Shown: in pieces, positions 21,623-24,430 of the stretch | Layout: every line of letters starts with the position of its first letter | How positions within the stretch are numbered: position 1 is the stretch's first letter | Source: Fibrobacter sp. UWP2 | GTDB taxonomy: Bacteria; Fibrobacterota; Fibrobacteria; Fibrobacterales; Fibrobacteraceae | NCBI RefSeq assembly: GCF_900141705.1 | Contig: NZ_FQYM01000004.1 | Span: 1 to 64,000, forward strand | Direction of reading: 5' to 3' | Length of the DNA stretch: 64,000 bases | Translations under genes and position numbers: made by a program | The notes under the pieces: generated by a model | Told to the model about the DNA's origin: nothing | The model's database searches: none | What the model saw: only the letters and a program-made list of their open reading frames with translations

Positions 21623-21824
21623 ATGCACTCCTTGAGTTTATTGCAGAATATACGTACTTTTACAGGGCGAAAAGTGAGCGGAAAATCACACTGTGACGGG
21701 CCGCACAGAATGCGGTGGACTATATTCTATTTTGGAGCAAGGTGAAGTTGGTCTCGCAAAAGAAAATTTTTTTGCTATATTTAGCCCACCTTCGGGGTGT
21801 AGCTCAGCCTGGTAGAGCGTCTGC

Positions 21825-21945
21825 CGTGAGCAAAAAACGCCTCGTATTGCGGTATAATCGCATAAACCGGCGCCTCGACAATAGAAACAAGTAAACTTGT
21901 TTCTGCTGTGCTCGGCTTAGGTTTATTTAACGAGGCGTGATTGCG
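21825..21945 (+). repeat. Structured insert in the anticodon arm of tRNA-Pro copy 1
   Basis: Starts CGTGAGCAAAAAACGCCTCG. A 9-bp inverted pair ACGCCTCGT (21837-21845) and ACGAGGCGT (21930-21938) encloses the hairpin AAACAAGT-AA-ACTTGTTT (21885-21902) and a small GCG/CGC hairpin. The CGTGAGC opening resembles the repeats at 14 kb and 41.8 kb. Confidence 0.6.
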
Positions 21946-21978
21946 GTCTTTTTAGGGATCAGAATGTCGTTAGTTCGA

Positions 21979-22074
21979 CAAAAACACCGGTGAGCAACGC
22001 GAACGTAAAGGTGTTTTTGCGCTTGCGCTGCGCGCAAGCCCGCAGGGCGGAGCGAAACGTAGTGAACGCTCCGC
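21979..22074 (+). repeat. Structured 96-nt element, copy 1, in a tRNA T-loop
   Basis: Immediately follows AGTTCGA of the T-loop. Three stems are predicted: AAAAACACC with GGTGTTTTT; a Cys-codon-free GC stem GCTTGCG/CGCAAGC; and GGAGCG/CGCTCC. Nearly identical to the copy at 22219-22314. Confidence 0.8.
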
Positions 22075-22159
22075 AATCTGGCTACCCCTGGTCCGTGAGG
22101 ACCATACAAAAACGAATTATATCCGCAAATAACAAAATATTTTCTATATTTGGGGCACT

Positions 22160-22329
22160 CGGGGTGTAGCTCAGCCTGGTAGAGCGTCTGCTTTGGGAGC
22201 AGAATGTCGTCAGTTCGACAAAAATACCGGTGAGCAACGCGAACGTAAAGGTGTTTTTGCGCTTGCGCTGCGCGCAAGCCCGCAGGGCGGAGCGAAACGT
22301 AGTGAACGCTCCGCAATCTGGTTACCCCT
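22160..22329 (+). pseudogene. tRNA-Pro(UGG) copy 2, interrupted in the T-loop
   Basis: 22160-22218 equals the first 59 bases of the intact tRNA, including the TTTGGGA anticodon loop. The 96-nt element then splits the T-loop after TTCGA, and AATCTGGTTACCCC resumes at 22315. The T-stem can still pair on each side of the insert. The last acceptor base is T instead of G, weakening the first pair. TATATT at 22145-22150 lies upstream. Confidence 0.85.
22219..22314 (+). repeat. Structured 96-nt element, copy 2, in a tRNA T-loop
   Basis: Same three-stem layout as at 21979-22074, with AAAAATACC/GGTGTTTTT as the first stem (one C-G pair replaced by a wobble pair). Flanked by tRNA-Pro sequence on both sides. 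Confidence 0.85.
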
Positions 22330-22399
22330 GGTCCGTGAGGACCATACAAAAACGAATTATATCCGCAAATAACAAAATATTTTCTATATTTGGGGCACT

Positions 22400-22473
22400 C
22401 GGGGTGTAGCTCAGCCTGGTAGAGCGTCTGCTTTGGGAGCAGAATGTCGTCAGTTCGAATCTGGCTACCCCGA
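22400..22473 (+). tRNA. tRNA-Pro(UGG), intact
   Basis: A 74-nt cloverleaf: acceptor CGGGGTG with TACCCCG, D-arm GCTCAGCCTGGTAGAGC, anticodon stem TCTGC/GCAGA with loop TTTGGGA (anticodon TGG), T-stem GTCAG/CTGGC with loop TTCGAAT, discriminator A. CCA is not encoded. TATATT is at 22385-22390 and a 17-bp terminator hairpin follows directly. It is the last and only complete copy of the three in this cluster. Confidence 0.95.
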
Positions 22474-22511
22474 TACACAAAAGGTCCCCTTTATGGGGAC
22501 CTTTTGTGTAT
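22473..22511. terminator. Terminator of the tRNA-Pro unit
   Basis: ATACACAAAAGGTCCCC, loop TTTAT, and the exact complement: a 17-bp perfect stem that starts at the tRNA discriminator base. The stem itself carries A- and T-runs, so it can work in both directions. Confidence 0.85.
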
Positions 22512-22521
22512 CTTAGGTATC

Positions 22522-22628
22522 GCCAGATCGAACTGACCAGTTCGACAAAAACACCGTTGAGCGAAGCGAAAGTAAAGGTGTTTTTGCGCTTATGCGCAAG
22601 CATAAGCCCGTAGGGCGGCGCGAAACTT
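22522..22628 (+). repeat. Inverted T-arm fragment followed by a third, diverged structured element
   Basis: GCCAGATCGAACTGAC (22522-22537) is the reverse complement of the tRNA-Pro T-arm with one base missing; it abuts CAGTTCGA (22538-22545) head to head. The element then begins CAAAAACACC at 22546. Its second stem is CTTATGC-GCAA-GCATAAG, different in sequence from the other copies but still paired, and the third stem is cut off near the trmFO stop. Confidence 0.75.
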
Positions 22629-22634
22629 CTTGTT

Positions 22635-23969
22635 TTAAAACTTCCTTGTTGCAATCCATTCGCGGACGCACTGTTCCGCTTCGTTGGCGAGAAATTCCTT
22701 CTTGTTCGACTTCTTCATCTTGAGCCCCTCGGTATGGGGGAGCAACCCGAAGTTGAAGTTCATGGGTTGAAAGTCCTCGTTTTCCTCGACGAGTCGGTTC
22801 ATGAGGGCTCCAATACAGCTCCCGTCAGGGAGCGGGTCGGCATGCCCGTGTAAAATCGTAGAAGCCATGTTCCAGGCGGCGTACCAGCCTGTGGCGACGG
22901 CTTCGGTGTAGCCTTCGCTGCCGGTAATTTGCCCCGCGAACCATGTGGGCGGGATTCCCTGGGCGCATGGAAGTTTGGGCCTTAAACGCAGGGTGGCGTC
23001 CAGGAACTTGGGCGATTCGATGAAGGTATTGCGGTGCATGCAGCCGAGGCGCGCGAACTTTGCGTTGCGCAAGGCCGGGACCATCGTGAAGATTTCCTTT
23101 TGCGTGCCCCACTTGAGGCGCGTCTGGAACCCGACCATGTTGTAGAGTGTCTTCTGCTTGTTCTCGGCGCGCAGCTGGATGACTGCATACCACAGGTGCC
23201 CATTGTTGCCAAGGCCCAGGCCAATGGGCCGCATGGGGCCGTGGCGGAGCGTCTCGTAGCCGCGGCGGGCGAGTTCCTCCACGGGGAGGCAGCCCTCGAA
23301 CAGTTCGTGCTTCTCGTAGGGGCGAGGCTCCACGCCCTCGGCTTCGGTGAGCTTGCGGACAAACTCCGCGTAGGTTTCCTTGTCGAGGGGGCAGTTGATA
23401 AAGTCCGCGGTTTCGCCCTTTTCCCATCGGTTCATGTAAAAGGCGTGGTCAAAGTCGATGCTGTCGGTCTCGACTACGGGGGCGATGGCGTCAAAAAAGT
23501 GCAGGCGTTCGCTGCCCAGCCGCTTGAAGATGTCGTCGGTCAGGGCGTCGCTGGCGAGCGGCCCTGCGGCCACGAGCGTCGGGCAGTCACCTTCCAGCGA
23601 GGTCACTTCTTCGTGGTGGAGGGTAATGTTGGGGGCGTCGGCAATTTTTCTCTCCACCGATTCGCTGAACAGGTCGCGGTTCACGGTGAGGGAGTCGCCT
23701 GCGGGCACTGCCGCCTCGCGGGCGCTTTCGAGTAAAAAGCTCCCGAGCATCGTGAGCTCCTGTTTAAGGAGTCCGTGTGCGCTCGTTTTGCCCATGGCCT
23801 TGAAACTGTTGGAGCACACGAGCTGTGCCAAATGGCCGTCCCTGTGGGCGGGCGTCATTTTGTTTGGACGCATCTCATAAAGGTCAACCCGAAAACCGCG
23901 GCTTGCAAGCTGCAGGGCCGCTTCGCATCCGGCGAGTCCGCCGCCAATCACTCTGACGCGTTCGTTCAT
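22635..23969 (-). CDS. trmFO: Methylenetetrahydrofolate--tRNA (uracil-54-C5)-methyltransferase
   Basis: An FAD- and folate-dependent enzyme that makes ribothymidine at position 54 in the tRNA T-loop. It starts MNERVRVIGGGLAGCEAALQLA (FAD-binding), then RPNKMTPAHRDGHLAQLVCSNSF and, later, GLGNNGHLWYAVIQL and ITGSEGYTEAVATGWYAAWN, all family signatures. Its 444 residues match TrmFO. The start at 23969 is fixed by the dinucleotide-binding N-terminus. Its substrate loop is the same loop that is interrupted in the neighbouring tRNA-Pro copies, probably a coincidence. Confidence 0.95.
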   Translation of the reverse strand: MNERVRVIGGGLAGCEAALQLASRGFRVDLYEMRPNKMTPAHRDGHLAQLVCSNSFKAMGKTSAHGLLKQELTMLGSFLLESAREAAVPAGDSLTVNRDLFSESVERKIADAPNITLHHEEVTSLEGDCPTLVAAGPLASDALTDDIFKRLGSERLHFFDAIAPVVETDSIDFDHAFYMNRWEKGETADFINCPLDKETYAEFVRKLTEAEGVEPRPYEKHELFEGCLPVEELARRGYETLRHGPMRPIGLGLGNNGHLWYAVIQLRAENKQKTLYNMVGFQTRLKWGTQKEIFTMVPALRNAKFARLGCMHRNTFIESPKFLDATLRLRPKLPCAQGIPPTWFAGQITGSEGYTEAVATGWYAAWNMASTILHGHADPLPDGSCIGALMNRLVEENEDFQPMNFNFGLLPHTEGLKMKKSNKKEFLANEAEQCVREWIATRKF

Positions 23970-23974
23970 CGGGG

Positions 23975-24430
23975 CTAGTTCAGGACAATCTTCTTGTAGC
24001 TCTTGGCGTTGCCGATCCAGAGTTTCACGAGCAGTTCCTCGAGGGAGGCTGTCGAGACGCAGTCGGGGTCGGCATCCTGGATCTCGTCCGAGATCAGGTT
24101 CGCCTGAGTCAAATTGAGCATCCCGTAATACAGCGCTTCCATGAGCTGCGACGCGAACTTGGGCGAAATGTTCGTTACATAGTCCATGTCGTTGAGCGGG
24201 GGAAGCTGCGTATTGTCGGGGGAGAACTGGTCCAGGTTGTCCATGGTCCACATGTCGGCAGCCTTGCCCATGTCGGGGGTGGGGGCTATGCTCAAGAGCT
24301 TCTTGTGATAGTCCCTCCACTCGGCGTCCGAGGTTTTGCCCGATTTACGGACAGCCTTCAAGAACGAAAGCACCGCGTAATACAGTTCTTTCTCTTTCTG
24401 GTTGACTTCTTTTGTGGACGTAGGATTCAT
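23975..24430 (-). CDS. Conserved-looking hypothetical protein upstream of trmFO
   Basis: A 151-residue, mainly helical, acidic soluble protein (MNPTSTKEVNQKEKELYYAV…) with no motif I recognise. Its stop is 6 bp before the trmFO start, so the two are probably co-transcribed, as is the upstream purine gene. The start at 24430 is preferred over 24448 because the upstream codons are hydrophobic and non-specific. Confidence 0.7.
   Translation of the reverse strand: MNPTSTKEVNQKEKELYYAVLSFLKAVRKSGKTSDAEWRDYHKKLLSIAPTPDMGKAADMWTMDNLDQFSPDNTQLPPLNDMDYVTNISPKFASQLMEALYYGMLNLTQANLISDEIQDADPDCVSTASLEELLVKLWIGNAKSYKKIVLN

Follow-up and report, generated by a model that had tools for sequence, protein, structure and literature searches.

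RtT-type tRNA-trailer cassettes in Fibrobacteraceae carry the T-arm of the resident tRNA

Results

The structured element that splits tRNA-Pro copies in the genome of Fibrobacter sp. UWP2 is, with a probability of about 0.8, an RtT-type tRNA-trailer RNA cassette, of the kind known from the tyrT operon of E. coli. Transcription from the tRNA promoter would run on into the cassette, and tRNA processing would probably set the RNA free. It is a known kind in a new phylum, real and conserved. The cassette can be described as a copy of the T-arm and acceptor 3' strand of the resident tRNA, opened in the T-loop and filled with a conserved core (H1, H2, CCCGNAGGG and H3). A first-pass annotation, made from the letters of this DNA, had known of no described element with such behaviour; this view is not supported, since the RtT of E. 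coli tyrT (RF00391) has the same anatomy and each of the two models finds the other.

The tRNA-Pro locus of the window

The window is the whole stretch of 64,000 nucleotides that was analysed, and all coordinates refer to it. By repeat search and direct reading, three copies of the element were located on the plus strand (21979-22074, 22219-22314 and 22546-22628), and all of them start directly 3' of the TTCGA of a tRNA-Pro T-loop. As read in the first-pass annotation, elements 1 and 2 each split a near-complete tRNA-Pro copy, the 96-nt core being preceded by CAGTTCGA/TAGTTCGA and followed by the tRNA remainder AATCTGGYTACCCC. Both lie inside a 240-bp tandem duplication with 97% identity.

The 5' part of tRNA-Pro copy 1 (acceptor 5' strand, D arm and start of the anticodon arm, 21792-21824) is identical to the intact tRNA over 33 nt (repeat family D3). 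A second break follows, an insert of about 120 nt in the anticodon arm (21825-21945, direct reading) that is separate from the RtT-type element, and the remainder of the copy up to the TTCGA of the T-loop (21946-21978; repeat family D4, 85% to the intact tRNA) has a decayed anticodon arm. This insert is a second, different structured insert in the decayed upstream tRNA-Pro, and a similar start, CTGYCGTGAGC, was seen in several species (L041, L088 and L092). Core 1 (21979-22074) comprises H1, H2, a CCCGCAGGG mini-hairpin and H3; behind it come the tRNA-Pro 3' end (T-stem 3' strand and acceptor 3' strand, 22075-22088, repeat family D6) and, by direct reading, a short hairpin, TGGTCC-GTGA-GGACCA (22089-22104), with a second copy at 22329-22344. 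A GGTCCGTNAGGACC-type hairpin likewise stands behind split copies at L086, L088, L089 and L092, with a variant at L041. Copy 2 holds positions 1-60 of tRNA-Pro(UGG) and ends in TTCGA (22159-22218; 100% to the intact tRNA, Rfam tRNA 31.5 bits), core 2 (22219-22314) splits its T-loop, and the tRNA-Pro 3' end resumes at 22315-22328 (repeat family D6).

The intact tRNA-Pro(UGG) noticed nearby in the first reading was retrieved by ARAGORN at 22399-22474 (Rfam 63.7 bits). It is followed by a terminator-like hairpin with 18-bp arms (22472-22512, inverted repeat I1), behind which element 3 is found. The third element had been described with an inverted T-arm fragment, and this reading stands: the stretch 22523-22545 carries the antisense tRNA-Pro T-arm CCAGATCGAACTGA (22523-22536; P1 5' strand CCAGAT, P2 5' strand CGAACTG) and then the direct T-stem 5' strand with TTCGA (direct reading), and core 3 begins at 22546, behind CAGTTCGA. 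This core lacks the final ATCTGG and its last hairpin, H3, is truncated (end at 22628).

The covariance model R2 was trained on Fibrobacteraceae units of tRNA-Pro(CGG) and tRNA-Ser(CGA), arms included, without the Pro(UGG) copies. Against the 64 kb it retrieved the three elements and nothing else, with E = 7e-15, 5e-13 and 9e-11 and scores of 56.0 (21954-22083), 49.6 and 41.9 bits (22523-22634, where P1 and P2 are paired by the model), so that a chance origin of these matches is set aside. By DNA similarity the three elements of the window are the only copies in the source genome (72 contigs). An assembly artefact is an unlikely origin of the arrangement, because T-loop-split tRNA copies recur in other genomes.

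A simple promoter and terminator scan of the region returned no usable promoter and no terminator. Two miRNA families matched in the Rfam scan, mir-9457 and mir-944, were rejected as chance matches on the long terminator hairpin. The convergent neighbour of the locus is TrmFO, which methylates U54 of tRNA T-loops (22635-24320, minus strand), apparently also in several relatives; at L022 the block of tRNA and cassettes appears inverted relative to TrmFO. This proximity is probably a coincidence.

Anatomy and covariation of the cassettes

A standard unit opens with P1, an antisense copy of the T-stem 3' strand; after a GA comes P2, a hairpin that joins the T-stem 5' strand in antisense and in sense form, with GTTC. 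Behind another GA stand H1, H2, CCCGNAGGG and H3, and the unit closes with the sense T-stem 3' strand and the acceptor 3' strand. The core is thereby placed within a T-loop, at TTCGA|AAT. In downstream units of the standard form, the T-stem strands pair each with its own antisense copy (P1 and P2) and not with each other, which prevents a tRNA fold. The apical motif GA-RC-GNA-GY-GA is found in both H1 and H3. Shorter cassettes (L032, L037, L066, L098 and others), made of P1, H2, CCCGNAGGG and a different H3 without P2 and H1, are mixed with the long form in arrays and are sometimes chimeric (L071).

Stem sequences differ between copies and the pairing is kept. In alignment A2 (19 Fibrobacteraceae units, 40 pairs), 92.5% of the cells are paired versus 78.7% after shuffling, with two-sided change in 21 pairs, and the covariation score of 0.370 (0.144 shuffled) was reached by 0 of 500 shuffles, which strongly bears out the paired changes and the conserved structure proposed from the window alone. 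By single-sequence folding against shuffles, split copy 2 folded no better (z -0.9), element 3 gave z -3.3 and one Ser unit z -6.6. Gap placement hid H1 and H2 from RNAalifold in the Pro(UGG) alignment, and the stems were therefore counted by script and on a second alignment. H1 showed 372 Watson-Crick, 8 GT and 1 AC pairs in 405 cells; H2, with 36 distinct stems, 241 Watson-Crick, 4 GT and 2 AC in 252 cells; H3 192 Watson-Crick, 3 GT and 5 AC. The acceptor stem of tRNAs, taken as control, gave 281 Watson-Crick, 36 GT and 4 AC in 322 cells. The G-T share is thus 1.6-2.0% in H1 and H2 versus 11% in tRNA acceptor stems, a gap that is still large given that the register filters of the count tilt it somewhat toward Watson-Crick pairs.

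So few G-T pairs are unusual for a structure selected only as RNA, and their scarcity may reflect a palindromic renewal of the stems in the DNA itself, which keeps a DNA-level role as a live rival. The hairpins would then act as extruded or single-stranded DNA, as a recombination, replication or protein-binding site, the RNA being incidental. Arrays of up to six units (L283) fit such a role, as do the recurring C-GNA-G loops, which are very stable in DNA. However, all copies lie on the strand of the tRNA and the Y1 transposase family PF01797 is absent in four of the five element-carrying genomes tested. The E. coli RtT is moreover reported as a transcript in PMC4986893, and we regard a purely DNA-level element as rather unlikely. 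A derivative of IS200/IS605 or of REP-RAYT was rejected as an identity: PF01797 is absent in the source genome, and of the genomes tested G000, G016, G108 and G162 lack it and only G159 has it.

Distribution in Fibrobacter and beyond

Searched as DNA, the element was found in 10 of 101 genomes, and the copies fetched were all linked to tRNA-Pro(UGG). At most of the distinct tRNA-Pro(UGG) loci (n = 69), between one and four units are present, and the tRNA 3' end is repeated at the close of each unit. Nine tRNA-Pro(UGG) loci of one clade (L074-L082) consist of tRNA, terminator and gene only, so the cassettes at Pro(UGG) are not essential in that clade.

A second covariance model, R1, was built from 28 Pro(UGG) cores, the tRNA-derived flanks being left out. 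It matched in 77 of 80 Fibrobacter genomes, many of the matches lying outside the training sites, behind tRNA-Pro(CGG) or tRNA-Ser(CGA) and flanked by the T-arm of that tRNA; five further genera of Fibrobacteraceae carry the element as well. With R2, 87 of the 168 genomes of the phylum were positive, all in one family and distributed over 7 genera. Single units or tandem arrays stand behind the tRNA terminator, and the tRNAs concerned in the family are Pro(UGG), Pro(CGG), Ser(CGA) and Gly(GCC). In the source genome the element also stands behind Pro(CGG) (two units) and Gly(GCC): six of its seven R2 matches are at Pro(UGG) or behind one of these two, and the seventh (E = 2.65) is at chance level. 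All matches inspected in relatives are behind a tRNA or have the arms of one, except the weak L319 (E 0.033). With these two exceptions, all inspected copies are tied to a tRNA. A test for a dispersed MITE in the source genome and relatives gave no significant copies at unrelated sites; all were at or behind tRNAs. The exact-pattern scan of genome and viral contigs with GCAATCTGGYTACCCC returned Fibrobacter matches and apparent chance 16-mers, with matches in only 4 viral contigs.

Among 24 other bacterial genomes, R2 detected units behind tRNA-Gln(CUG) in two Candidatus Thiodiazotropha and behind tRNA-Ser(CGA) in Rhodanobacter, again with the arms of their own tRNA. With Tyr in E. coli, these cases and Pro(CGG), Ser(CGA) and Gly(GCC) in the family support the prediction that the element also concerns tRNAs other than Pro. 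At two Rhodanobacter loci (L358, L360), RtT-type units occur along with a tRNA-Ser 3' end and a terminator, but no intact tRNA was seen close by, which looks like a displacement together with islands.

Other repeats were observed in tRNA trailers. Behind tRNA-Arg(ACG), L220 (G000:C1) carries two repeats of a unit of about 298 bp, both of which close with an intact tRNA-Arg T-arm, the acceptor 3' end and a terminator. Above cut-off, tRNA was the only Rfam family to match this unit, and it represents another tRNA-trailer repeat family. At L204 (minus strand, tRNA-Arg(UCU)) and L196 (tRNA-Asp(GUC)), the antisense of the tRNA's own 3' end lies right behind the terminator without a direct copy, and at L230 GGCCTTGGCGCGAAGCGGCGAGGCC palindromes are repeated behind tRNA-Glu(UUC).

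Arms of the cassettes and origin of the split tRNA copies

The T-arm of the resident tRNA was compared with 37 other T-arms for each distinct unit of Pro(UGG), Pro(CGG) and Ser(CGA), and it fits best or ties in 123 of 144 cases. As a control, the test was run with Lys or Glu genes that also lie upstream of these units, and none of 19 was best or tied. The same crude test gave 1 of 4 best or tied for the Tyr units, the Gly and Tyr units being too few or too diverged for it. The arms of Pro(CGG) units also vary by genus, with CGAGAT/GAACTCAC in Fibrobacter and the CGGGAT/GGACCCAC type in g29.

These results bear on the possibility of a selfish mini-element, mobilised in trans, with tRNA T-loops as its specific insertion site. 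The precise TTCGA|AAT site, shared by tRNAs that differ in specificity and seen also in split copies of Pro(UGG), Pro(CGG) and Ser(CGA), is what such an element would leave, and T-loops are known as integrase crossover sites (PMC1762012, PMC4383910). Nevertheless, only a few tRNAs carry the element and several others with a TTCGAAT loop are free of it, the same tRNAs are occupied at orthologous positions across 7 genera, and the units contain neither integrase nor ORF. A travelling element should also sometimes bring foreign arms, whereas the arms match the resident tRNA. We consider this explanation quite improbable. Entry into any tRNA T-loop, or mobility, raised as a possibility from the window, is not supported: the element is confined to the trailers of a few tRNAs, at orthologous positions family-wide, with arms that follow the resident tRNA. 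The remnant of an integrative island was discarded as an identity, as units of 100-240 bp leave no room for an integrase or island genes. The same applies to a group I or II tRNA intron, no intron family in Rfam matching at E up to 1 and an intact tRNA-Pro standing alongside.

Split near-complete tRNA copies also occur elsewhere upstream of the intact gene, at L279 (Ser(CGA)), L283 (Pro(CGG)) and L083, L086 and L054 (Pro(UGG)), several of them decaying; such copies apparently arose at least three times. They would be recombinants, formed where tRNA and cassette share an identical T-stem-TTCGA stretch; in the window the 240-bp tandem duplication would have come afterwards, and the copies would be tolerated because the intact tRNA-Pro remains. 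The whole element could also have arisen neutrally, as a by-product of unequal crossing-over and template switching at the 3' ends of tRNAs and at terminators, given the alternation of direct and inverted tRNA ends, the tandem copies, the concerted arms and the decayed split copies. A nested insert of about 160 bp with GGCAACC/GGTTGCC ends, within H1 of the L056 split-tRNA copy upstream of tRNA-Pro and missing in the near relative L054, points the same way. By contrast, the loop motifs (CCCGNAGGG and GA-RC-GNA-GY-GA) are kept from Fibrobacteraceae to E. coli and the stems change compensatorily. As an account of the cassettes the by-product explanation is very unlikely, and it likely holds for the split tRNA copies only.

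Relationship to the RtT RNA

The cassettes sit in tRNA trailers and end in a copy of that tRNA's 3' end. In an Rfam scan at lenient threshold, RF00391 matched the tRNA-Ser(CGA) units over their full length with 25-33 bits. Genome-wide, at E up to 0.05, it gave 33 full-length matches (1-130/130) in 29 of 80 Fibrobacter genomes; the 15 loci fetched were all cassettes behind tRNA-Ser(CGA) or Pro(CGG), and most of the other matches overlap those of R1. Among 14 control genomes, E. coli was the sole match. The curated gathering cut-off of RF00391 (45 bits) was passed in none of the 80 Fibrobacter genomes (best 37.6 bits), for which reason the cassettes are named RtT-type and not curated members of the family, and the window region with its Pro(UGG) elements gave no RF00391 match at E up to 1.

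In the reverse direction, the arm-less R1 detects the E. coli RtT weakly (7.9 bits), and R2 was built with arms for this reason. On the tyrT-tyrV locus of E. coli K-12, R2 returned exactly four RtT units (46.9, 40.9, 39.3 and 38.3 bits), with E values of about 1e-11 to 1e-13 and no further match in 2 kb; Rfam found the same four. Direct reading of this locus gives GGATGAGAAGCTTCGACCAAGGTTCGA, a core with CCCGAAGGG, and AATCCTTCCCCCACCACCA, i.e. the T-arm of tRNA-Tyr opened in its T-loop.

Discussion

The RtT-type reading entails that the Fibrobacter units would be transcribed by read-through from the tRNA promoter and, by analogy with E. coli RtT, cut out at the copied tRNA 3' end by tRNA processing, as suggested by the faithful copy of this end that closes each unit. 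PMC4986893, citing Bosl and Kersten 1991, reports the release of the E. coli RtT from the transcript of the tRNA operon and an effect of RtT on the stringent response. By analogy, a regulatory role of the cassettes tied to tRNA supply is possible. More tentatively, RtT-type cassettes could form a general bacterial class of tRNA-matched RNA (Tyr, Gln, Ser, Pro, Gly) that keeps both strands and the antisense of its own T-arm, co-evolves with the tRNA and acts on its precursor, for example as a trap for the T-arm or as a competitor in 3'-end processing or in the modification of the T-arm. No description of a general T-arm rule was found in the accessible literature, most subscription papers lying outside it.

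Until now RtT stood as an isolated curiosity, seen in the tyrT operon of E. coli and relatives, and the same architecture is now found family-wide in Fibrobacteraceae. It yields a testable rule across several tRNA types and two phyla, namely that the RNA is a tRNA T-arm opened in the T-loop and held open by antisense copies. The arm rule points to a function on the neighbouring tRNA, and hundreds of natural variants are at hand for testing it. It also carries a warning, as tRNA annotation and island-finding tools can misread such loci.

Like the tRNA 3'-fragments of the Islander type, with crossover in the T-loop or T-stem, the cassettes present a direct tRNA repeat from T-loop to 3' end downstream of an intact tRNA; unlike them, they have no island, integrase or ORF between the repeats, and they show units of 100-240 bp, antisense arms and a conserved folded core. 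With REP/BIME, RAYT and IS200/IS605 derivatives they share palindromic repeats, but they are not dispersed and the source genome has no Y1 transposase. RtT-like elements of Enterobacteria have been reported as part of BIMEs and may attenuate transcription (PMC2965389). Covarying tandem GA has been described in RtT (PMC7657543), with which the GA-stem-GA motif of the Fibrobacter cassettes fits. The closest likeness is with the E. coli RtT itself, in the order of arms and hairpins, GATGAGAAC...GTTCGA, CCCGAAGGG, the GA-flanked GNA hairpins, the closing copy of the tRNA 3' end, the tandem units behind a tRNA and the reciprocal model matches. The Fibrobacter units differ by their phylum, by a much longer H1 and by arms that copy tRNA-Pro, Ser or Gly where those of E. 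coli copy Tyr; they also often have their own terminator-like hairpin and usually no CCA copy, and some split a near-complete tRNA, unlike the RtT of E. coli.
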